A DNA stretch of 21,363 bases, from positions 1 to 21,363 of the IMG/VR virus record IMGVR_UViG_3300043437_000135, one strand, 5' to 3'. Both the position numbers and the translations under genes were made by a program. This stretch comes from a virus. Positions 9,957-19,799 of the stretch are shown in pieces (position 1 is the first letter of the stretch; every line of letters starts with the position of its first letter). The notes under the pieces are model-generated. The model had not been told where the DNA came from. It searched no databases and saw nothing but the letters and a program-made list of their open reading frames with translations.

Positions 9957-11453
9957 TTAATAATAGGCGGCGCGACGCGAGCGCCAGAATACCGGTTCGT
10001 CTTTTTCGTCCGTATCAAGCCTAATTAGCCCGCCCTGCCTGAATCTGAGCAGCGCCATGGACATAGTATCTACGTAGTCGTCGTGTTCACCCACCGGAAA
10101 CGAAGCGACTTCCTCAATTACATCGCGCGCCCAGCGATTATCGGGTGCCCATACGCGGCCCGAAAAGAACATATCCGACACCGCGTTGACCCGAGTCACC
10201 TTATCGTTGCCGCGTGACGGCGTGTATTCAGCCACTGGGATACCCATGGCCCTAAGCTCCTGAATGAGCGGTGCGCCTGCGGCTTTCTTCTCAATAACAA
10301 ACGCGTCAGGTTCCCATTTCTTCCAGTGCTTATACGCAACCTGTTTTAACTCTGGAAACTCCATCCTGTCTTTGAACGCATCAAGCAGGATTATGTGCGC
10401 GTTACCGTTATCTTCGTCGTTGTGCCACACACCCCACGTAGTACACGCAGAATAGTCAGCACTTGTCTTGGCTTCGTACGCCGTATCCCATGTCTGAATA
10501 ACCCACTCGCACTTGGGCGGGTCTTCGGCTTCCCAGACGTTCCAGTATTCTCTTTTAATTACCGCCGCTGCATCCGATGTCGGCTGCTGCATGTACTGAG
10601 CGTTCCAGTACCGGGGGTCCATCGCCGCCTTTTTCTGTAGCAGCGACTCAAGGGGCCACTGCTCAGGCCACAACGACTTCTCATTCAGTATGGCTGGTAG
10701 CTCTACGACTTCCCACGGCTCAGAGTCCGGGTTCTTGGCAGCGAAGCTAATCAGCCTGCCCGTCAGGTCCAATAGTGACCAACGAGTCATAATGACGATG
10801 ATCGCACCGCCCGGCATCAAGCGCTGCAGCGGGCCAGTCTGGAACCATGACCAAGCCTGATCGAACGTCAAGTTACTGTTTGTCTTGATGTCCTGCTCAG
10901 AGTGGGGGTCGTCCACCACGAATAAGTCAGCGCCTCGTCCAGCCAGCGCGCCGCCCACACCGGCTGCGTAATACTGACCGCCTGCGCTCGTTGACCACTT
11001 ACCAGCGCTCTTTTGGTCGTCCGCAACCTTCGTAGCCGGGAATATCTCTGCGTATGCCGGGTCGTCGTTAATTAGATTTCGGACTCTTCGGCCAAAGTCT
11101 TCGGACAAGCCCGCAGTGTGGGTGCCCATAATGACTTTCTTTTCTGGGAACTTTCCCAGAAACCACGCTGGGAACAGGTAGCTGCTGAACTCAGACTTAC
11201 CCATACGAGGCGCGATATTGATAATCACGCGCTTTTTCGTACCCGTGGCTACGTCTTGAAACACCTTCGCAAGCTTGCGGTGGTGGGGGCCTACCTTAAA
11301 GCCGGGGTATACCCGCTTGGCAAACTCAAGTGGATCGTCTTGGGCACGCTGGATAGCGTCCTTGTGTTCTTTCTTCTCAAGAAGTTCAAGCAGGGCGATC
11401 TTCTCCTGCTTACTCATAGCCGCCAGCGCGGCTGCGTTCAATGGAGCGTTCAC
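9957..11453 (-). CDS. terL: Terminase large subunit
   Basis: A 498-aa ATPase and nuclease that drives DNA into the procapsid and cuts it. The Walker A-like loop is APRMGKSE (residues 81-88), Walker B is DLFVVDDP (176-183), and the coupling motif region is IIVIMTRW (218-225). The RNase-H-like nuclease shows QTWDTA (D323), FVIEKKAAG (E388) and EHDDYVDTM (D458/D459/D462). All expected parts are present at normal length. The GTG start at 11453 overlaps the small subunit stop by 4 nt (GTGA), with GGGGA six bases upstream. ATG at 11414 is an alternative. The portal gene follows. Confidence 0.93.
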   Translation of the reverse strand: MNAPLNAAALAAMSKQEKIALLELLEKKEHKDAIQRAQDDPLEFAKRVYPGFKVGPHHRKLAKVFQDVATGTKKRVIINIAPRMGKSEFSSYLFPAWFLGKFPEKKVIMGTHTAGLSEDFGRRVRNLINDDPAYAEIFPATKVADDQKSAGKWSTSAGGQYYAAGVGGALAGRGADLFVVDDPHSEQDIKTNSNLTFDQAWSWFQTGPLQRLMPGGAIIVIMTRWSLLDLTGRLISFAAKNPDSEPWEVVELPAILNEKSLWPEQWPLESLLQKKAAMDPRYWNAQYMQQPTSDAAAVIKREYWNVWEAEDPPKCEWVIQTWDTAYEAKTSADYSACTTWGVWHNDEDNGNAHIILLDAFKDRMEFPELKQVAYKHWKKWEPDAFVIEKKAAGAPLIQELRAMGIPVAEYTPSRGNDKVTRVNAVSDMFFSGRVWAPDNRWARDVIEEVASFPVGEHDDYVDTMSMALLRFRQGGLIRLDTDEKDEPVFWRSRRAAYY

Positions 11454-12058
11454 TCGGCGTCCCCGACGACTTCGGCGTCAGTTGCGTCCTTCTTTCTTTC
11501 CTCTACGTCCTCGATTAACCGCAGAGCGGTTAGCTTCTCCATGAGCTTGGCGTCGATCTCAGCGTCGGAAATGTCGGTCTTCTTAACCTCGATGCGCTCG
11601 GTGAACAGGCCCACCTCAGTGACCTTACCTAACAGTTCAAGCGCGCGCAGCCTGATCTTAGCGTCGGGGTGACCTGTTTCCTCAACGATCTTTGACACGG
11701 CGTAGCCGCGTAGCTCCTTAGCCTGCTCGACAAACTCCCAGTCATACGCGGTCAGCATGCCAACTAAATGGCGCACCGCCTGCGGGGTCTGTACACGCAG
11801 GAGCTTGTTTTTTGCTTTTGGGTCGTCTTGATCCGCGATCAATCCGCGAAACGCTTCTTGTGCGGAGGCTACCTGCGCAGACGCAGCCACTGCGTCATCA
11901 TCCTCGACGCCGAGAGACTGCAAGAAGTTACCCGTCTCAACTTGCGCGGCCAAAACCTGAGACGGGCTGGCCTTCTCTAAAGGCGTAAATCCTACTACCG
12001 GATCGTCATAAACGTCCGGAGCATTAGTTGAAACTTCGCCTAATAGGTGGTCAAGCAT
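11450..12058 (-). CDS. terS: Terminase small subunit
   Basis: A 202-aa protein whose C-terminal half (ELRGYAVSKIVEETGHPDAK, then ALELLGKVTEVGLFTERIEV) fits small terminases of environmental phages, where a helical repeat is followed by SEVGLFTER-like residues. It would recognise the packaging site and load the large subunit. It sits immediately upstream of terL with a GTGA overlap and is the first gene of the leftward operon. The ATG at 12058 lacks an obvious Shine-Dalgarno sequence (the upstream reads CAGATATAAAT). A sigma-70-like promoter sits about 40 nt above it. Confidence 0.75.
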   Translation of the reverse strand: MLDHLLGEVSTNAPDVYDDPVVGFTPLEKASPSQVLAAQVETGNFLQSLGVEDDDAVAASAQVASAQEAFRGLIADQDDPKAKNKLLRVQTPQAVRHLVGMLTAYDWEFVEQAKELRGYAVSKIVEETGHPDAKIRLRALELLGKVTEVGLFTERIEVKKTDISDAEIDAKLMEKLTALRLIEDVEERKKDATDAEVVGDAE

Positions 12059-12641: not shown

Positions 12642-13022
12642 ATGACATACGCAACCGTCCTGTCCGCAGCCCGCGCAATGCTCAACGGCGGCGCTAACTT
12701 CCACGCCGAGATGGCGAAGCACATCAACAAGGCAGGGCATGCACCTGCCGCGCTTATCAATCAGCTAGCCCGGACGTGGGACAAGCGCTACAAGTGTGAG
12801 GCTAAGCTCACAGACACGGGATGGAGGTTCAAGTCTGCGGATGGCACGCGGCACGATGCCGCGCAGAAGCAGTGGGATCGAGAGGTTCGCCCGTATGACG
12901 CAACCCCGATGAGCAACAGGGGTGGAGCGCGCAGCGCACAGCAGGACGCAGTAGCGAAGCTTGTTGCCGCGTACGGCAAGCTGAGCGCAGCCGAGAAGCG
13001 CAAGTTCAAGGCTTCGATCTGA
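12642..13022 (+). CDS. Unknown 126-aa right-arm protein
   Basis: The gene begins at ATG 12642 with the same GGAGATCACC-ATG sequence as the preceding gene. The N-terminal half is helical (VLSAARAMLNGGANFHAEMA). The middle (WDKRYKCEAKLTDTGWRFKS) is beta-like and aromatic. The C terminus is basic and helical (LSAAEKRKFKASI). It could bind nucleic acid, judged only by charge. No family is recognised. The coding sequence contains perfect short inverted repeats, for instance CGCGGCA/TGCCGCG at 12847-12863. Confidence 0.65.
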   Translation: MTYATVLSAARAMLNGGANFHAEMAKHINKAGHAPAALINQLARTWDKRYKCEAKLTDTGWRFKSADGTRHDAAQKQWDREVRPYDATPMSNRGGARSAQQDAVAKLVAAYGKLSAAEKRKFKASI

Positions 13023-13029
13023 GAAACCT

Positions 13030-13051
13030 GTTTGCGACACGTGTCGCAAAC
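13030..13051. promoter_or_regulatory. 22-bp perfect palindrome, copy 1 of a repeated site
   Basis: The core TTTGCGACACGTGTCGCAAA is flanked by a further matching G and C, giving 22 bp of perfect dyad symmetry in the gap between two genes. Three more copies occur at 14522, 15154 and 17220. No U-tract follows, so it is more likely a protein binding site than a terminator. Confidence 0.8.
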
Positions 13052-13104
13052 TCAATCACGGCGTGGGTGAGAGTCCACGCCTATTCAACCCAAAGGAGAA
13101 AACC

Positions 13105-13617
13105 ATGAAAGCAACATTCAAACTCACACCCGAGCAACTCAACGCCGCGCTTGAAGCGCAGCAAATCAACAAGTTCGCGTTGGAGGAGGACAGCGATGGG
13201 CTGATCGACTGCGGTCTGTATTGTGTGGCGGATGAGCCGCACACCAACCCAAACCAGCGGGTCTACATTAAAGGCAAGCATCTGGTTGTGGAAGGCGAGC
13301 GCTGCGCGCTAGTTGGAGACGACGGCTACGAAATAGCCATGTGTATCGTCGGCGAGGACGCCGTGCCAGTGAAGTATGAGACGAGCGATCCTCGTCTGAA
13401 GTGGAATGAAACGTTGGCGATGTATATGAAGGCACGAGCACCGCTCGATGCACGGATTGCGTACGTATTGGACAAGCGACATCACGAATGGCGCTGGTTC
13501 CTCCCGGAGTACGAGGCATGCGTCGCCTACCTGCAAACCAACCCAGCAAAGGCGTACGCGCAATTCGACGCATACACAATCAGCGTATGCCGCCAGATCG
13601 TAAAGGAAACAACATGA
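13105..13617 (+). CDS. Unknown 170-aa right-arm protein
   Basis: ATG at 13105 follows AAAGGAGAAAACC; the longer frame starting at 13063 is rejected because it has no ribosome site. The product begins MKATFKLTPEQLNAALEAQQ, has a beta-rich centre (VYIKGKHLVVEGERCALVGD) and a helical C terminus with HHEWRWFLPEYEACVAYLQT. No membrane segment, signal peptide or catalytic motif is evident. Its stop overlaps the next start (ATGA), so the two are coupled. I do not recognise a family. Confidence 0.7.
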   Translation: MKATFKLTPEQLNAALEAQQINKFALEEDSDGLIDCGLYCVADEPHTNPNQRVYIKGKHLVVEGERCALVGDDGYEIAMCIVGEDAVPVKYETSDPRLKWNETLAMYMKARAPLDARIAYVLDKRHHEWRWFLPEYEACVAYLQTNPAKAYAQFDAYTISVCRQIVKETT

Positions 13618-13748
13618 TCTTCAACGCCATCTCACTCGCCGCATTCGCGGCGCTCATCGCAGGCTACGCGGCCTTGCCGCTTAGCTACTGTGTCATCGCC
13701 GCTGCGCTTGGCGCAGCCCTTTCCATCCTCATCGACCGGAGCAAATGA
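13614..13748 (+). CDS. 44-aa membrane protein with two hydrophobic helices
   Basis: ATG at 13614 overlaps the previous stop by 4 nt (ATGA) and is preceded by AAAGGAAACAAC. The product has two hydrophobic stretches (FNAISLAAFAALIAGYAALP and YCVIAAALGAALSILI) and ends with DRSK. The positive C terminus suggests both ends inside the cell. It resembles the 49-aa protein at 12459 in size and topology but not in sequence. The function is unknown. Confidence 0.6.
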   Translation: MIFNAISLAAFAALIAGYAALPLSYCVIAAALGAALSILIDRSK

Positions 13749-13909
13749 TGAAAGCAACCAAAGTCCCCGCCCTGCTGGGCGGTCGTCCCATCTCAAAGTA
13801 CACGGACACTCCGCAGGCTGCGCATGCTCGCTTGCTGCGCGCCGATCCCAAAACCCTCACGCCAATGCAGGCAGCACTGCTGCGCGCCATCAAAGGACAA
13901 ACCAAATGA
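13748..13909 (+). CDS. 53-aa basic protein, coupled at both ends
   Basis: Two adjacent ATG codons (13745 and 13748) are possible. I choose the second because GGAG lies six bases before it, and it shares one base with the previous stop (TGATG). The product begins MKATKVPALLGGRPISKY and continues with helical LLRADPKTLTPMQAALLRAI. It is basic, with no membrane segment. The stop overlaps the next gene by ATGA. No family is recognised, but overlaps on both sides and codon continuity argue for a real gene. Confidence 0.6.
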   Translation: MKATKVPALLGGRPISKYTDTPQAAHARLLRADPKTLTPMQAALLRAIKGQTK

Positions 13910-14052
13910 GCAAGACGCACAAGTCCGCGCATGCGGACACCAAAGAATCAGCAGCCCGTCGCCGTGCTGCGCACGTAGCCCGCATGAAGCGGGAGAAAGC
14001 AATGCTCAAGGACCATATCAGTAATACGTTAGTGATACGGGGTCAAAAATAG
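13906..14052 (+). CDS. 48-aa highly basic helical protein
   Basis: ATG at 13906 overlaps the previous stop (ATGA) and follows AAAGGACAAACCA. The product (MSKTHKSAHADTKESAARRR, then MKREKAMLKDHISNTLVIRG) has many Lys, Arg and His residues and is helical. It could bind nucleic acid, judged by charge only. It is the last gene before the 350-bp non-coding element, and its transcripts would run to the terminator at 14350. Confidence 0.55.
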   Translation: MSKTHKSAHADTKESAARRRAAHVARMKREKAMLKDHISNTLVIRGQK

Positions 14053-14057
14053 GGTCG

Positions 14058-14094
14058 AAAAAAACGCGTCCACGTTTTCAGCACCAGTGGACGC
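14058..14094 (-). terminator. Leftward-facing terminator at the left edge of the element
   Basis: On the minus strand GCGTCCAC, a 13-nt loop and GTGGACGC form an 8-bp stem, then G and seven T residues. No known minus-strand gene lies upstream of it; everything to the right is on the plus strand. Confidence 0.65.
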
Positions 14095-14210
14095 ATAGTG
14101 GGTAACCGGAGAAGCGCATGCCTACTGGGCGCGTCCAGATTTGGGGCATCTATGTATCTATATTTATATATTATTAGTAGTAGTAGTAGGGTAGTGGGTA
14201 AGTGGACTCT

Positions 14211-14239
14211 TTGAGCCTCTTAATGTCTGGCTATATAAA
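14211..14239 (+). promoter_or_regulatory. Candidate promoter inside the inverted-repeat element
   Basis: TTGAGC (14211-14216) and TATAAA (14234-14239) are 17 nt apart, matching four and five of six consensus bases. RNA from about 14246 would run ~105 nt to the terminator at 14350, or read through into the zinc-ribbon gene. Confidence 0.4.
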
Positions 14240-14307
14240 GTACCGCAAAAAAGGATACACTTGTGCCCGACTACCCAACAACTACGCTACCATGCGCATC
14301 TCCAGCG

Positions 14308-14350
14308 ACCCACTATGCGTCCACTTGGCCTGAAGTGGTGGACTTTTTTT
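14308..14350 (+). terminator. Rightward-facing terminator at the right edge of the element
   Basis: GTCCAC (14319-14324) pairs with GTGGAC (14338-14343), followed at once by seven T residues. A competing stem CCACTT/AAGTGG (14321-14338) could form instead. It should end transcripts coming from the first right-arm gene block. Confidence 0.7.
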
Positions 14351-14406
14351 GACCAAGCTGGACTATATTCCAGTGATTGAAACCAAAACAAAGGACTAAC
14401 ACCCCC
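14349..14406 (+). promoter_or_regulatory. Shared leader/promoter module, copy 1
   Basis: TTGACC (14349-14354) is followed by a hairpin, CTGGA-CTATAT-TCCAG (14358-14373), then TGAAACCAAAACAA and GGACTAACAC before the ATG. The same order and spacing recur upstream of the MoxR gene (17286-17339). The Shine-Dalgarno-like AAGGA is 11 nt from the start, rather far. Confidence 0.5.
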
Positions 14407-15054
14407 ATGAACGAACAAGCATGCTCACGCTGCGGGCAGTTCAAGCCCCGCGAATCCTTCCGAGTGAAGGCAACCCCAGCGCAGAAGCAGCGCTGGAATA
14501 AGGAATGGATAACCTCCGGTGTTTGCGACACGTGTCGCAAAGAACCCGCAAAGAGAACGCTCGGCCCGGTCGGGCTATTCAAGAAGCTCACAACTGCAGG
14601 CTTGCCTGCGCCCATCATCGAGATGCGCGTAGCGCAACGCGCTCACATAAACAAGGAGCGACGCGTGGCGGGCCTACGCAAGGCATGGAGGGAGAAGAAC
14701 AAAGACACAACCGAAGCATGCTTGGCTTCCCTAGATAGGGAAGCAACGATGAACAGAAACAGAATCACTTACGCGCTGCGCGTAAGCATGGCTGCACCGA
14801 TCAACGCAGCACTCATCGCATACAACGAAGTTCTAATAGCCGCCAGAGCGGCTATCAAGGAGGACACAAACGCAGGTAGGACACCGCCCAACCCATGGCA
14901 CAACGCTATCCCAAAGGAGCAGAAACTAGAACTAATAACTGTATTTCACTCTGCTATGCAGAGCATCGAGGACTCGTACATGCGAGGCTACTTAGGCCGC
15001 GCTCAACCCTCATGGTGGAGCGAATTTGTTATGAGCCAAACAAAAGGAGAGTGA
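14407..15054 (+). CDS. Zinc-ribbon protein of unknown function
   Basis: A 215-aa protein with a four-cysteine site near the N terminus: C6-x2-C9 in ACSRCGQFKPRESF and C40-x2-C43 in GVCDTCRKEP. This is the knuckle pattern often seen in phage DNA-binding or nuclease-associated zinc ribbons. The remaining ~170 residues are helical and basic (INKERRVAGLRKAWREKNKD), with no HNH or other catalytic motif that I can find. ATG at 14407 is preferred over a TTG at 14377 that lies in the leader. The codons for the second knuckle coincide with a copy of the repeated palindrome (14522-14541). The gene also carries several perfect hairpins within its coding sequence. Nucleic-acid binding is an inference. 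Confidence 0.65.
   Translation: MNEQACSRCGQFKPRESFRVKATPAQKQRWNKEWITSGVCDTCRKEPAKRTLGPVGLFKKLTTAGLPAPIIEMRVAQRAHINKERRVAGLRKAWREKNKDTTEACLASLDREATMNRNRITYALRVSMAAPINAALIAYNEVLIAARAAIKEDTNAGRTPPNPWHNAIPKEQKLELITVFHSAMQSIEDSYMRGYLGRAQPSWWSEFVMSQTKGE
14522..14541. promoter_or_regulatory. 20-bp perfect palindrome, copy 2, inside the zinc-ribbon gene
   Basis: TTTGCGACACGTGTCGCAAA lies in the coding sequence, read as V-C-D-T-C-R-K in frame. The copy at 15154 is read in another frame, so protein coding does not explain its conservation. Confidence 0.8.
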
Positions 15055-15056
15055 AC

Positions 15057-15407
15057 ATGAAGATCAACCCACTGGACGAGATCAAGAACTTATACCGCTT
15101 CGCGGACAAAGACGAGATCAATAAGGCTATAGACAGGCAAATCACCAAGCTGATTGCGACACGTGTCGCAAAGCCCATCAAGACAATCATTCACGTTAAC
15201 CAGCACGCTGTTAAGCGCAACGCCAAGACAGGCGGCGATGAGCCTGTCCTCACAGTCAAGACATACAAGAGCAACACATACGCGCACAGCGTAGCCATCG
15301 ACGGACCGTCGCGTGTCATCTACAGCCCAGACAAACCCCTGTCATGCGGCGCTAAGGTGTGGATCGAGACGCACGCACACGTAACCATTGACCCCAAAGG
15401 AGAGTAA
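15057..15407 (+). CDS. Unknown 116-aa right-arm protein
   Basis: ATG at 15057 follows AAAGGAGAGTGAAC and lies two bases after the zinc-ribbon stop; the much longer frame beginning at 14895 would overlap that gene and is rejected. The N-terminal part is helical and charged (MKINPLDEIKNLYRFADKDE). The rest is beta-like and basic (TIIHVNQHAVKRNAKTGGDE, KTYKSNTYAHSVAIDG). No motif is recognised. A palindrome copy (15154-15171) encodes I-A-T-R-V-A-K here, and a 7-bp stem, GACAGGC/GCCTGTC, lies at 15227-15248. Confidence 0.65.
   Translation: MKINPLDEIKNLYRFADKDEINKAIDRQITKLIATRVAKPIKTIIHVNQHAVKRNAKTGGDEPVLTVKTYKSNTYAHSVAIDGPSRVIYSPDKPLSCGAKVWIETHAHVTIDPKGE
15154..15171. promoter_or_regulatory. 18-bp perfect palindrome, copy 3, inside the 116-aa gene
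   Basis: TTGCGACACGTGTCGCAA is embedded in coding sequence in a different reading frame from the copy at 14522. The outer T/A pair of the longer copies is absent here. Confidence 0.8.
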
Positions 15408-15409
15408 CC

Positions 15410-15919
15410 ATGAAACTTCACTACCGCACCATCCGCCACATCGACTCACGCTGGCCCGATACCGAGCCGTACGAAACGGCTCACGAGTTTAGCTACGACC
15501 CGGACGCGATCACCCCCGAGTACGACGGGTTCTGCCCCTCCCCCTGCCGCGCCTTCAGCAAAGAGGAGGCGCAGTGGATTCTGCGCGCCTACGACTTCCC
15601 GCCCGTGGTCGAGGTGGATGACGCCGACCACTTGAAGGATGAGTACGGGTTCGACGACTACAAGAAGTACACGTGGCTCGACAAAACCGTGCCAAACAAA
15701 AAGGAAGAAGTGAAACTGAATGTGAACGGCTGGTCAATTGTCCACACTGCCGACGGCAAGGGGCTTTCCCTCAAACCCGACGACGCTAGCGCCAACCAGT
15801 ACGAGGTATGCGTAGCCCTGCGCCCCCTGCGCGGCGGCGTGTTGCACTTGGCTATTCACGAGGACGGTGTGGACGCCCCCGTGTTTGAGATCGACCAAAC
15901 CCTTACAGAAGGAGAATGA
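15410..15919 (+). CDS. Unknown acidic 169-aa protein
   Basis: ATG at 15410 follows AAAGGAGAGTAACC and lies two bases after the previous stop. The N terminus (MKLHYRTIRHIDSRWPDTEP) leads into an acidic region rich in Asp, Tyr and Trp (VVEVDDADHLKDEYGFDDYK). A beta-rich C-terminal half follows (WSIVHTADGKGLSLKPDDAS, LRGGVLHLAIHEDGVDAP). The net charge is clearly negative, which can be a feature of DNA-mimic inhibitors but is not evidence by itself. No family is assigned. The stop overlaps the next start by 4 nt. Confidence 0.65.
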   Translation: MKLHYRTIRHIDSRWPDTEPYETAHEFSYDPDAITPEYDGFCPSPCRAFSKEEAQWILRAYDFPPVVEVDDADHLKDEYGFDDYKKYTWLDKTVPNKKEEVKLNVNGWSIVHTADGKGLSLKPDDASANQYEVCVALRPLRGGVLHLAIHEDGVDAPVFEIDQTLTEGE

Positions 15920-16110
15920 AAATGCACGAACACTACTTGCAAGAAGTGGGCACCCGTGACCCACGTACAAACACCGTTCGTTTCAGCCGCACATACGTGC
16001 CGGCGCATGCGACGGACATCAGGATCACATTCGCCAGAGTCAAGGCGCAGAAGCAACTGGATGCGCTGCGCATGGCGCTGCAGTTGGAAGAGTGGATGAA
16101 GAGCGAGTAA
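15916..16110 (+). CDS. Unknown 64-aa protein
   Basis: The ATG at 15916 overlaps the previous stop (ATGA) and follows AAGGAGA; a second in-frame ATG at 15922 is possible. The product (MKMHEHYLQEVGTRDPRTNT, then DIRITFARVKAQKQLDALRM) seems to be a short beta hairpin followed by an amphipathic helix. The stop is followed by a 9-bp hairpin at 16113. I recognise no family. Confidence 0.6.
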   Translation: MKMHEHYLQEVGTRDPRTNTVRFSRTYVPAHATDIRITFARVKAQKQLDALRMALQLEEWMKSE

Positions 16111-16112
16111 CG

Positions 16113-16134
16113 GGCACGCTACCCCTAGCGTGCC
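16113..16134 (+). promoter_or_regulatory. 9-bp hairpin with CCCC loop between genes
   Basis: GGCACGCTA-CCCC-TAGCGTGCC is a perfect stem-loop starting two bases after the 64-aa gene. It lacks a T-run on either strand, so it is probably not a terminator; it could protect an mRNA 3' end or be a binding site. CACGCTA recurs at 17171, 17191 and 17211. Confidence 0.6.
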
Positions 16135-16161
16135 AAACACAAACAACCAAGGAGAATCACC

Positions 16162-17178
16162 ATGTCATTCGGCAACAGAGCAGATAAGTGCAAGACCATC
16201 CGCAACTACAGCCAAGCGCTCATGTTCTTCACGCGCTACCCCAAGCCACGCTCAGCCAAGTGGTCAGACAACGAGCGCCCCATCTACATATCAGATGGCA
16301 AGCCCAGCACACGCATGTATCAGTACAGAATGACCGCTGGCCCCACCGACGCAACCACTAGCACCCCAGCGTACTTCGACCTCGTGCTGCACAGCACAAG
16401 CGTCATCCGCTACATGGCACCGACCGAGGACAACAAGCGTGTCGTCTACCTTACGTATGGTGGGTGGACTAGCACGCTCACACGCGCATTCATGTGGCAG
16501 CACGGCTGGCACTACGGACAGGAGTTCAATACGACGGACGGCACACGCGTAGCTGTGCCACTGAACTACTGCGCTAGGAGTGAGCACTGGATAGACAATC
16601 AATGGCTAGCCAAGCTGACGTTCAACGAGGACGACAGGCTCATCGTGCCTGAGAGCGATCACATGATCGTGTACAAAAGGAAGTCATCTACAGAAGACAA
16701 GGCAGTGCGCGCAGACATGCGCCGTAAGATGGACCTCATGCACGACATGCTGTGGTTCAGCATCGAGAGCCTACTGACTGACTTAAAAGCGGCAGTGGAC
16801 GGGCAAAGCACAAGCAAGTGGCGCTTCCTGCAGGATGAGTTCGGTCCGTTCACCACTGCGCTGGATAGGCTGTCTCGTGAGAACAGCGAGCAGATCATTA
16901 ACTCCGAGTCCGAGTTCCTGCGTGCCGACGTTGACTTCACGCCCGATACCATCGAGGCAATGCGCGCGCTATATATGTGCGCCTTCCGGCATCTGTATGG
17001 CAAGAACTTGGTAGACGGTACGGAGACACTACCCACGCAAGACGCGGTGAAGCGGTCAGTCACCACCTACCTGATGTCGATGTTCCGCATCAAGGACGGC
17101 AAGGAGTTCGTGCCGCTGCCCAAGTTCATGCTGGTCGAGGACTACCCGGCACGCTCACACTTCCTGCGCCCACGCTAA
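16162..17178 (+). CDS. Unknown 338-aa phage protein
   Basis: ATG at 16162 follows AAGGAGAATCACC. The first ~140 residues hold YFDLVLHSTSVIRYMAPTED and VVYLTYGGWTSTLTRAFMWQ. These recall a small domain I have seen in phage proteins, with a histidine, a GGW and T-rich turn; this is a resemblance only. Residues ~175-338 are helical (ADMRRKMDLMHDMLWFSIES, FTPDTIEAMRALYMCAFRHL). No Walker, nuclease or membrane motif is seen. The gene ends in the first of two tandem 20-bp repeats. It precedes the MoxR operon by 161 nt that include a promoter-like leader, so it need not be co-transcribed with it. Confidence 0.7.
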   Translation: MSFGNRADKCKTIRNYSQALMFFTRYPKPRSAKWSDNERPIYISDGKPSTRMYQYRMTAGPTDATTSTPAYFDLVLHSTSVIRYMAPTEDNKRVVYLTYGGWTSTLTRAFMWQHGWHYGQEFNTTDGTRVAVPLNYCARSEHWIDNQWLAKLTFNEDDRLIVPESDHMIVYKRKSSTEDKAVRADMRRKMDLMHDMLWFSIESLLTDLKAAVDGQSTSKWRFLQDEFGPFTTALDRLSRENSEQIINSESEFLRADVDFTPDTIEAMRALYMCAFRHLYGKNLVDGTETLPTQDAVKRSVTTYLMSMFRIKDGKEFVPLPKFMLVEDYPARSHFLRPR

Positions 17179-17217
17179 GCACGCGAGCGACACGCTAAGC
17201 ACGCGAGCGACACGCTA
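17171..17217 (+). repeat. Tandem 20-bp repeat at the end of the 338-aa gene
   Basis: CACGCTAAGCACGCGAGCGA occurs twice exactly (17171-17190 and 17191-17210), followed by a third CACGCTA. The gene's TAA stop lies inside the first copy, so extra copies would not change the protein. Confidence 0.9.
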
Positions 17218-17219
17218 GC

Positions 17220-17248
17220 TTTGCTACACGTGTCGCAAACACGTTTGC
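17220..17248. promoter_or_regulatory. Palindrome copy 4 with an extra half-site
   Basis: 17220-17239 matches the 20-bp palindrome with a single change (T at 17225). The right half then pairs again with a further GTTTGC, GCAAAC-AC-GTTTGC (17235-17248). Three half-sites in alternating orientation lie just upstream of the MoxR operon. Confidence 0.75.
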
Positions 17249-17339: not shown

Positions 17340-18473
17340 ATGATCGCTTACACCAACTTCCTGTCGCACGCCGAAGTCGCACAGTCCATCGTCGCCGACG
17401 GTCACGTTCTCACCACTCACATTCTCGGTGAGACGGGTATCGGTAAGACGGCTGTCGGCAAGCTGGTAGCCAAGGCGCTGCCCACCCACCGGTTCTCAAT
17501 CATCGACGCAACCCAAGTCAGTGACGGCAGCATCACGCTGCCTGTGCTCGACGTTGAGCGTGGTATCTCAGATGAGTTACCAAATGTGCGGTTCGGCGTG
17601 AGCCGCACAAGCCAGCGTGGTGTCGATGGTAGCCAGCCCATCATCGTGTTCATTGACGAGTACAACAAGGCAAGTAAGTACGCCAAGAACGCACTGGCTC
17701 CGGTGATCTACGAGCGCAGGCTGGGTCACTTCTACCTGCCCGATGGCAGTATCGTCATCCTTGCATCCAACCTCGGTGTCGAGGGTTACGGTGATTCGTC
17801 GCAGATGTTCCTCAAGACTCGGGAAGCCACGCTGTACATGCGCAAGCCCACGAGCGAGGAGTTGGTGGCGCACGCCACTGAGCAGGGCTGGGAGGCAGAG
17901 GTGATCGGGTTCATTCATGAGCACCCGCAAGTGTGCGACTCATTCATGGACTACTCCAAGGAGTACGGCGGCAAGTACGCGGGTCGGGATCAGACCAAGG
18001 AGAATCAGATGATCCTCAATCCGTACGTGGAGCAAGACAAGATCACCTCACCGCGTACCCTTGAGTTCTCATCGCACGTGATGCGCGGGGCCAAGGCGAA
18101 CAAGTTATCGCTCAATGTGGTGCGTGCCAAGCTGATCGGCACAGTTGGCGAAGCGTGCGCGCTGCTCATGATGGCGTACTTCCAGTCAGGCCAAGAGGCT
18201 GAGACTTTCGAGAACGTAGTCGCTGACCCCATGGGCGCGCGTCTCAGCACCAACCCGACTGTTCAACTCATTCAGTTGTTCAAGTTCCTCACACGTGTCT
18301 CTGATCGCACTGAGGCACAGGCAGTGACTAAGTACATGGGTCGGTGCCGTGAGGAGATGCAGATCCTGTTCTGCAAGCGCGTGTCTAACACAGCCACGCT
18401 GATGTCGCTGTTCGTTACCGTCGCTGAGTTCGGTGCGATGCTGCGCAATAACCGTGACCTGTTCAAGCTGTAA
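17340..18473 (+). CDS. MoxR/CobS-type AAA+ ATPase
   Basis: A 377-aa AAA+ ATPase. Walker A is GETGIGKT (residues 30-37), Walker B is IIVFIDEYNKA (101-111) with catalytic E107, and sensor 1 is the N144 of IVILASN. EATLYMRKPTSEELVAHATE follows, and the C-terminal ~200 residues are helical. Families of this type (MoxR, RavA, CobS, CbbQ) form hexamers that use ATP to remodel a target, usually with a VWA-domain partner, which is the next gene here. Start: ATG at 17340 is preceded by CAAGGAGTAACACAC; the TTG-initiated extension at 17313 is inside the leader. It is first in a five-gene operon. The target is not evident; a host or phage protein complex are both possible. Confidence 0.85.
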   Translation: MIAYTNFLSHAEVAQSIVADGHVLTTHILGETGIGKTAVGKLVAKALPTHRFSIIDATQVSDGSITLPVLDVERGISDELPNVRFGVSRTSQRGVDGSQPIIVFIDEYNKASKYAKNALAPVIYERRLGHFYLPDGSIVILASNLGVEGYGDSSQMFLKTREATLYMRKPTSEELVAHATEQGWEAEVIGFIHEHPQVCDSFMDYSKEYGGKYAGRDQTKENQMILNPYVEQDKITSPRTLEFSSHVMRGAKANKLSLNVVRAKLIGTVGEACALLMMAYFQSGQEAETFENVVADPMGARLSTNPTVQLIQLFKFLTRVSDRTEAQAVTKYMGRCREEMQILFCKRVSNTATLMSLFVTVAEFGAMLRNNRDLFKL

Positions 18474-18500
18474 ACCAACTACTAACAAGGAGTAACACAC

Positions 18501-19799
18501 ATGACTCTCACTACACACTGGGATCGTCTGACGCCTGAGCAGCGCGTTGCTGCGGCTGGCGTGGACTGCATGGGTAGCCCCATGTTCTCGTTCCTCACGG
18601 GCTTCTACGTGATGGGCACCGTGTCATTCGATGACAAGTGGCAGACCGCTGCCACTAACGGACGCGACGAATGCTACGCACCGTCATTCGTTGCCAAGCA
18701 GAACCGCAAGCAGATGCGCTACCTGCGCACCCACGAGGTGATGCACAAGGCGCTCAAGCACTGCTCGGACTACAAGGAGATCAACAGCAAGTATCCGCTG
18801 CTGTCCAACATCGCGCAGGATCATGTCATCAACCTCATGATTGAGTCGCTAGACCCGACGTTCAGTTTCGTTGAGCGTCCTGCTGGTGTGTCTATCTGCT
18901 GCGACGCGCAGTACACCGACATGAGTTGGCTCGATGTGCTGCGCCTGCTGATTAAAGATCAGCCACCACCGGATAGACCCAACCCCAAGAAAGACGGTAG
19001 CGGTGGTAAGGCTAGTGCGCCGCAGGATGGTGCGCAACCCAAGCAAGGCGCGGGTGAGCCGCATGATGGTGTGGGTGAGCCGGGTATGCCGCTCGATACG
19101 CATCTGCCCCTGCCCGACGATGTTGACGCTGACAAGCACAACGAGCAGGTCGATGTCATGGTGCGTCAAGGCAAGTTCATCGCTGACAAGCTGGCTGGTC
19201 GCAAGGGTAGTGGTGGCCCGCTTGATGCGCTTGCACAGACACGTAGCACCGACTGGGCTAGCGCCATGCGTGAGTTCATCGACACGGTGTGCGAGGGCGA
19301 CGAGTATTCCACGTTCAGCCCGCCCAACAAGCGCCTGCAGCACCTCAACAACATCGTGCTGCCGTCTAGGTTCGATGAGCGTGCGGGTGAGCTAATCATT
19401 AACTGCGATACGTCAGGGTCTATGGGTAGCGTATATCCCACAGTGTTCGGTGAGATCGCGCGCATCGTGCAGGTTGCCAACCCCGAGGCAGTGCGCGTTA
19501 TCTGGTGGGACACACGTGTGGCAGGCGAGCAGTTATTCACGCCTGCTCAGTACGCCAACATCGCCAAGCTGTTCAAGCCCAAGGGTGGCGGTGGTACCTC
19601 ACCCGGTGCAGTGGTCGAGTACGTACGTGCTAAGAAGTACAAGCCTGTCGCTGCGATCTGGCTGACTGATGGCTACCTCGATGGCTCCGAGAGGCAAGCG
19701 CGTGGACTCGACATCCCTCAGTTGTGGGGTGTCGTTGATAACACATCGTTTCGCGCACCTGTCGGCAAGGTTGTGCGTATCAACAGCATGACCCTGTGA
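18501..19799 (+). CDS. VWA-domain protein with HExxH metallopeptidase-like N domain (DUF2201-like)
   Basis: A 432-aa protein of two parts. The N-terminal domain has HEVMH at residues 78-82 and NIAQDHVIN at 103-111, the arrangement of the DUF2201-type putative metallopeptidase. Residues ~154-215 are a Pro-, Gly- and Asp-rich linker. The C-terminal VWA-like domain has an intact MIDAS: DTSGS (303-307), GGGGTSP with T366, and LTDG with D390. The DTSGSM...WWDTRV...GGGGTSP order is as expected. In MoxR-type systems the VWA protein is the adaptor or effector of the ATPase. The HExxH suggests that this one might also cut a protein, though related members may be inactive. Its ribosome site (CAAGGAGTAACACACATG) is identical to that of the MoxR gene 28 nt upstream. 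Confidence 0.82.
   Translation: MTLTTHWDRLTPEQRVAAAGVDCMGSPMFSFLTGFYVMGTVSFDDKWQTAATNGRDECYAPSFVAKQNRKQMRYLRTHEVMHKALKHCSDYKEINSKYPLLSNIAQDHVINLMIESLDPTFSFVERPAGVSICCDAQYTDMSWLDVLRLLIKDQPPPDRPNPKKDGSGGKASAPQDGAQPKQGAGEPHDGVGEPGMPLDTHLPLPDDVDADKHNEQVDVMVRQGKFIADKLAGRKGSGGPLDALAQTRSTDWASAMREFIDTVCEGDEYSTFSPPNKRLQHLNNIVLPSRFDERAGELIINCDTSGSMGSVYPTVFGEIARIVQVANPEAVRVIWWDTRVAGEQLFTPAQYANIAKLFKPKGGGGTSPGAVVEYVRAKKYKPVAAIWLTDGYLDGSERQARGLDIPQLWGVVDNTSFRAPVGKVVRINSMTL

Follow-up and report, generated by a model that had tools for sequence, protein, structure and literature searches.

A phage-specific DNA dyad repeated in an early-gene block diversifies together with a small adjacent protein, its candidate regulator

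We analyzed a virus record of 21,363 bases (IMG/VR record IMGVR_UViG_3300043437_000135; hereafter the window), in which a long palindrome, or dyad, recurs four times, and compared it with related phages represented by metagenomic assemblies. In the window, virion genes are oriented leftward from terS/terL, and rightward-oriented early genes form a cluster that reaches those for a MoxR-type ATPase and a VWA protein. The early cluster starts with a gene for a protein of 126 aa (gene 1; 12642..13022, plus strand), a candidate dyad-binding regulator on the basis of its family hidden Markov model (HMM) and its association with the dyads. Our comparisons establish that the dyads are selected duplex-DNA elements, clustered in the early region, that co-diversify with gene 1. 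We consider it likely (probability about 0.7) that they are lineage-specific duplex operators of a dimeric, self-regulating early regulator encoded by gene 1, and that the block containing them is exchanged between phages.

The core of the dyad, TTGCGACACGTGTCGCAA, occurs exactly at 13032, 14523 and 15154 of the window, and with one mismatch at 17221. Site 1 (13030-13051) is GTTTGCGACACGTGTCGCAAAC, with 22 bp of perfect symmetry, and lies ∼10 nt past the stop codon of gene 1. Site 2 (14522-14541; TTTGCGACACGTGTCGCAAA, 20 bp perfect) falls within the gene for a 215-aa zinc-ribbon protein (14407..15054, plus strand), where it is read as TGC GAC ACG TGT CGC AAA, or CDTCRK. Site 3 (15154-15171; TTGCGACACGTGTCGCAA, 18 bp perfect) falls within the gene for a 116-aa protein (15057..15407, plus strand; PHROG 8676, of unknown function) and is read in a different frame as ATT GCG ACA CGT GTC GCA AAG, or IATRVAK. 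Site 4 (17220-17239; TTTGCTACACGTGTCGCAAA, one mismatch) is intergenic, upstream of the MoxR-type ATPase gene. None of these sites is assigned a strand. The four positions and both intragenic readings agree with a preliminary description of the sequence, as does the absence of the dyad from the virion arm: even when 3 mismatches are tolerated, the entire record holds these four copies and no other. The chance expectation in the window is 0.03, and none of 100 shuffles reached four.

Four close relatives, three found by exact search of viral contigs and one more through its MoxR protein (68% identical), all carry the sites. Site 2 is kept in L001/G001, in L002, in L003, apart from one central change, and in G004 in the form TTGCTACACGTGTAGCAA. 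Site 3 is kept in L003, and its L002 version is TTGCTACACGTGTAGCAA. Site 4 stands at the same place in G001, L003 and G004 (2990, 10963 and, in oriented coordinates, 10414, respectively). All five sites of G004 read TTGCTACACGTGTAGCAA, each being altered symmetrically in both arms. The zinc-ribbon protein of that phage has CYTCSK in place of CDTCRK, two amino-acid changes that correspond exactly to the two bases symmetry demands; here, then, the protein followed the DNA. In the 116-aa gene of L002 this paired change recurs, there as two synonymous codons. At the intragenic sites it is the DNA, not the protein, that is conserved, and these paired changes support the earlier proposal that the nucleic-acid site is conserved in its own right. 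Relatives that keep the same genes also keep the palindrome, and its copies are clustered rather than scattered at random through the genome.

With TerL (498 aa; 9957..11453, minus strand) as bait, we fetched eighty relatives, and gene 1 (∼130 aa, opposite terS) was found in most of them by HMM. Within the 6 kb from gene 1, a dyad repeated 2-6 times was found in 45 phages whose gene-1 proteins are distinct, whereas 0 of 100 shuffled regions showed such a repeat. Within a phage, the half-site is constant or nearly so and the spacer length is constant; among phages, the half-site differs, with versions including TTGCGACA, TTGCTACA (in G004), TTGGGACA, GCAGACA (in L077), GTGGAG (in L081), GGACAG and others. 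The CACGTG centre is confined to the window phage and its closest relatives, the dyads of more distant relatives lacking it. Among the TerL relatives, the dyad recurs 2-7 times in a block of 3-6 kb between terS (in the window, 202 aa; 11450..12058, minus strand) and the MoxR gene (17340..18473, plus strand). Essentially all sites in 12 long records (25-66 kb) lie inside one block of ∼3-6 kb, which holds 3-6 sites, and complete genomes of 55-66 kb have essentially none outside it. In a control on real sequence, a repeated dyad of any kind was found in 14 of 14 block windows versus 8 of 100 elsewhere, where a strong one was seen once in 100. The more distant HTVC023P, HTVC027P, 023Pt_psg01, DSL-LC04 and N4 gave occasional weak repeats only (0-3 windows each). 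Rfam returned no match, and a literature search on this dyad/gene-1 system found nothing.

The sites favor particular positions relative to genes. A site lies 0-25 nt past the gene-1 stop codon in 36 of the 45 phages, and upstream of or inside gene 1 in 41. Among 71 more distant sites, 52% precede by 10-60 nt a start codon that has a ribosome-binding site, versus 15% of random positions, and none is <10 nt from the start codon. In the window, a GC-rich hairpin (ggcgtgg...ccacgcc; 13059..13088, plus strand) directly follows site 1; it was spotted by eye and is absent from the terminator scan list. Inspection by eye revealed such hairpins after several post-gene-1 sites in other phages too. No sigma-70 promoter was consistently present at a fixed distance from the sites.

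The element appears to act as DNA, not RNA, because spacers vary and wobble pairs are not favored. Spacer sequence differs even within one phage, as in L032 (TGG, ACC, AGG and GAC). Pairing is lost in 39 of the 43 one-sided arm mismatches; the remaining 4 are G-U, compared with ∼7 expected by chance (∼1 in six). Variable spacers with fixed arms fit a dimer that would grip two half-sites on duplex DNA. Every site could also fold as a hairpin, and many stand in 5' leaders or shortly before a downstream hairpin, as might be supposed for an early-mRNA hairpin that serves as a protein-binding site or an RNase III substrate. Yet the loops are free in sequence, with specificity in the arms and not the loop, and this, together with the G-U counts, makes an RNA element the least probable of the readings considered here.

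Several comparisons link the dyad to gene 1. The dyad distance between nearest neighbors was 0.27 when neighbors were defined by gene 1 (leaving out pairs nearly identical in TerL), versus 0.54 for TerL, 0.51 for TerS and 0.545 for all pairs. Phages with near-identical TerL and different gene 1, such as L103 and L077, have different dyads. In the 17 phages for which the zinc-ribbon protein was also compared, the distance was 0.26 for gene 1 versus 0.44 for the zinc-ribbon protein, the latter no better than random (0.46). For TerS, which served with TerL as a control protein, the partial correlation with dyad type was 0.055 (p 0.17; in all protein–dyad correlations related phages are treated as units, so permutation p-values are rough). 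Segments of gene 1 were compared using only sites >100 nt beyond the gene, to limit the effect of linkage. Residues 35-86 co-vary with the dyad (partial r 0.36-0.46, p 0.001), whereas residues 96-126 do not (0.01). The highest-scoring stretch comprises residues 66-86, where the AlphaFold model places a helix (72-81) after a beta-hairpin. Overall, this model (pLDDT 88.5) predicts a helix/beta-hairpin/helix domain at approximately residues 35-86, with a pair of helices at the C-terminus. For a second, distant gene-1 subfamily the predicted elements come in the same order, and the helix order of this second model is loosely like that of a winged helix. A BEN domain was called in 1 of 26 gene-1 members, below cut-off, and was not accepted.

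As a prospective test, three gene-1 subfamily alignments were used as queries for new contigs, and TerL was not used. Gene 1 alone thereby retrieved 42 new loci, of which 41 show a dyad repeated in the region where one was expected. Setting aside the loci with a gene 1 nearly identical to one already known leaves 26, some resembling each other, and the repeat is present in 25 of these. The kind of dyad was mostly that expected from the query subfamily: GCAGAC, TTTGGGACA or TTTGCGACA, and GTGGAG. The most distant gene-1 matches carry variant dyads (GCGGACA, GGGACA, GGGGACA and TGTGGA).

In the model we favor, the gene-1 product would bind each dyad directly, as a dimer. Its own gene, with sites upstream of or within it and others directly past its stop codon, would be under its control, and so would other early genes, whose sites lie within them or 15-60 nt ahead of their start codons. 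The most probable action, and thus the presumed sign of regulation, would be repression or a roadblock of early transcription once gene-1 protein has built up. Specificity of operator and protein would differ by lineage, such that the gene-1 protein of the window would prefer TTGCGACACGTGTCGCAA over TTGCTACACGTGTAGCAA or GCAGACANNNTGTCTGC. Like immunity regions, the segment that reaches from gene 1 to MoxR seems to be swapped between phages whose virion genes are nearly identical. An operator for a phage regulator was the first role listed in the preliminary description, and our data support it.

Some observations weigh against this model. Gene 1 is physically linked to the sites, so co-inheritance explains part of the association, and this linkage is not completely removable. 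TerL retains a partial association with the dyad of its own, and the zinc-ribbon protein retains a partial correlation of 0.41 (p 0.001). Gene 1 has no match in Pfam, PHROG or PDB, with no helix-turn-helix (HTH) called by Pfam or PHROGs, and Foldseek gave no match at E ≤ 0.001 for two gene-1 models against PDB and one against BFVD. No integrase was recognized in ten long relatives, whose records may be incomplete, so a classical immunity role receives no direct support.

The correlation seen for the zinc-ribbon protein raises the question of whether the dyads are operators of another protein of the block, most likely that one, or of a host regulator. The zinc-ribbon protein occurs widely in the block and shows weak likeness, by PHROG match, to nucleic-acid-binding endonuclease VII/HNH families; gene 1 has no recognized DNA-binding fold. 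However, nearest neighbors in the zinc-ribbon protein resemble each other in their dyads no more than random pairs do, as described above. Moreover, L102 has five dyads, but its gene there lacks the zinc-ribbon N-terminus and falls outside the zinc-ribbon family list. A host factor, in turn, should not track one phage protein independently of other phage genes. We regard a different binder as unlikely.

Still less likely are hairpin early promoters for a virion-packaged RNA polymerase (vRNAP), as in phage N4. Such promoters would suit the sites just before start codons, the MoxR/VWA pair, which is related to N4 gp24/gp25, and the presence in G001 of a 3147-aa protein. This protein (L105 2074-11517) has no RNA polymerase match; it carries an LPD38 domain, is otherwise unlike known proteins and is probably a large ejected virion protein. 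No homologue of the N4 vRNAP pieces or of gp15/gp16 (RNAPII) was found, in a search run without a positive control, and an RNA_pol family search was uninformative, matching in no control genome. In N4, recognition falls on loop bases, and a portion of the stem may change provided that it pairs (PMC4496689), whereas here the variation is in the spacer and the arms are constant. Many sites, moreover, are intragenic or fall between the stop of gene 1 and a hairpin. Partition (parS), replication-origin or packaging sites would account for the proximity to terS and to an AT-rich non-coding stretch, and CACGTG is common to the dyad and bacterial parS. But no ParB domain was found in the ten long relatives by a search whose positive controls matched, dyad type does not follow TerS, and the sites are spread across 3-6 kb and favor gene leaders. 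Such roles are scarcely probable. The partition role suggested earlier is further undercut by the dyads of more distant relatives, with their different centres, and no evidence was found for a site of replication or recombination.

If gene 1 binds the dyads, a function could be given to a protein family named in no library, and the dozens of regulator/operator pairs in these uncultivated phages would form a natural library. Change of specificity in a DNA-binding protein would become directly testable, and immunity-style swapping of specificity would not be limited to known temperate phages. If the block is indeed swapped, immunity-like selection may operate between co-infecting viruses that have no known lysogeny genes. 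It is possible, at somewhat less than even odds, that gene 1 represents a family of DNA-binding phage regulators not described before, which lacks any recognized relative of known fold and whose diversified operator specificity is block-swapped between apparently lytic, otherwise near-identical phages.

Other features of the window were also recorded. Downstream of site 1 is a gene for a 170-aa early protein (13105..13617, plus strand) with no Pfam or PHROG match, and immediately upstream of site 4 is one for a 338-aa early protein (16162..17178, plus strand); neither has been assigned a function. The MoxR-type ATPase and VWA protein with N4 relatives span 17340-19799, and an N4-type RNA polymerase was not detected in the relatives. 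The AT-rich non-coding stretch (14061-14350) lies between 60-nt inverted-repeat arms, 78% complementary and 170 nt apart. It directly precedes the zinc-ribbon gene, has TATA-rich counterparts at the corresponding position of L102 and G004, and is a possible replication origin. In the virion arm, three 99-nt direct repeats (1103-1459; 129 nt spacing, 73-75% alike) lie inside a gene for a 536-aa protein.

The exact 18-mer was also found in 14 stretches of bacterial genomes, in unrelated settings (e.g. Prevotellaceae and Rhodobacteraceae) and not syntenic, and these were set aside. In Prevotellaceae contigs L005, L014 and L015, the 18-mer or near copies are arrayed at 42-bp spacing, unrelated to the phages studied here. 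In the Rhodobacteraceae, Pseudooceanicola and Maritimibacter (L004 7681, L013 555) have the 18-mer with identical flanks in common, which suggests a conserved bacterial regulatory site.

Among known systems, lambdoid immunity regions (CI/Cro) have dyad operators near a regulator gene and modular exchange of specificity, and under our model both features would recur here. Unlike those regions, the present block has sites in many leaders and inside genes, not in two clusters of three. Nor was a repressor pair of the HTH_3 type found with an integrase: in the ten long relatives, where records may be incomplete, HTH_3 gave a single match, in G007. The likeness to bacterial parS/ParB is limited to the CACGTG centre of the window phage and its closest relatives, ParB not having been found. 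N4 (Schitoviridae) also has inverted repeats at early genes and a related MoxR/VWA pair, but in our phages the arms, not the loops, are conserved, and spacers differ in length among phages, with no 3-base loop of conserved bases. Cluster A mycobacteriophages (L5, Bxb1) have stoperators, phage-specific repeats that are mostly not promoter-associated, have a lineage consensus and co-diverge with their protein (PMC6550527). Stoperators are 13-bp, asymmetric and oriented, number up to ∼30 per genome, and are bound by a monomeric HTH-domain repressor in temperate phages (PMC6550527; PMC9283540). The dyads differ in being symmetric and only 2-7 per genome, in one block, and in their association with a small protein of unrecognized fold in phages where no integrase was found. 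Yet here too a phage-specific repeated site diverges between lineages together with a putative regulator, as judged by association and not by binding. By this analogy, the repressor/stoperator diversity of Cluster A mycobacteriophages is the nearest described parallel (PMC6550527).
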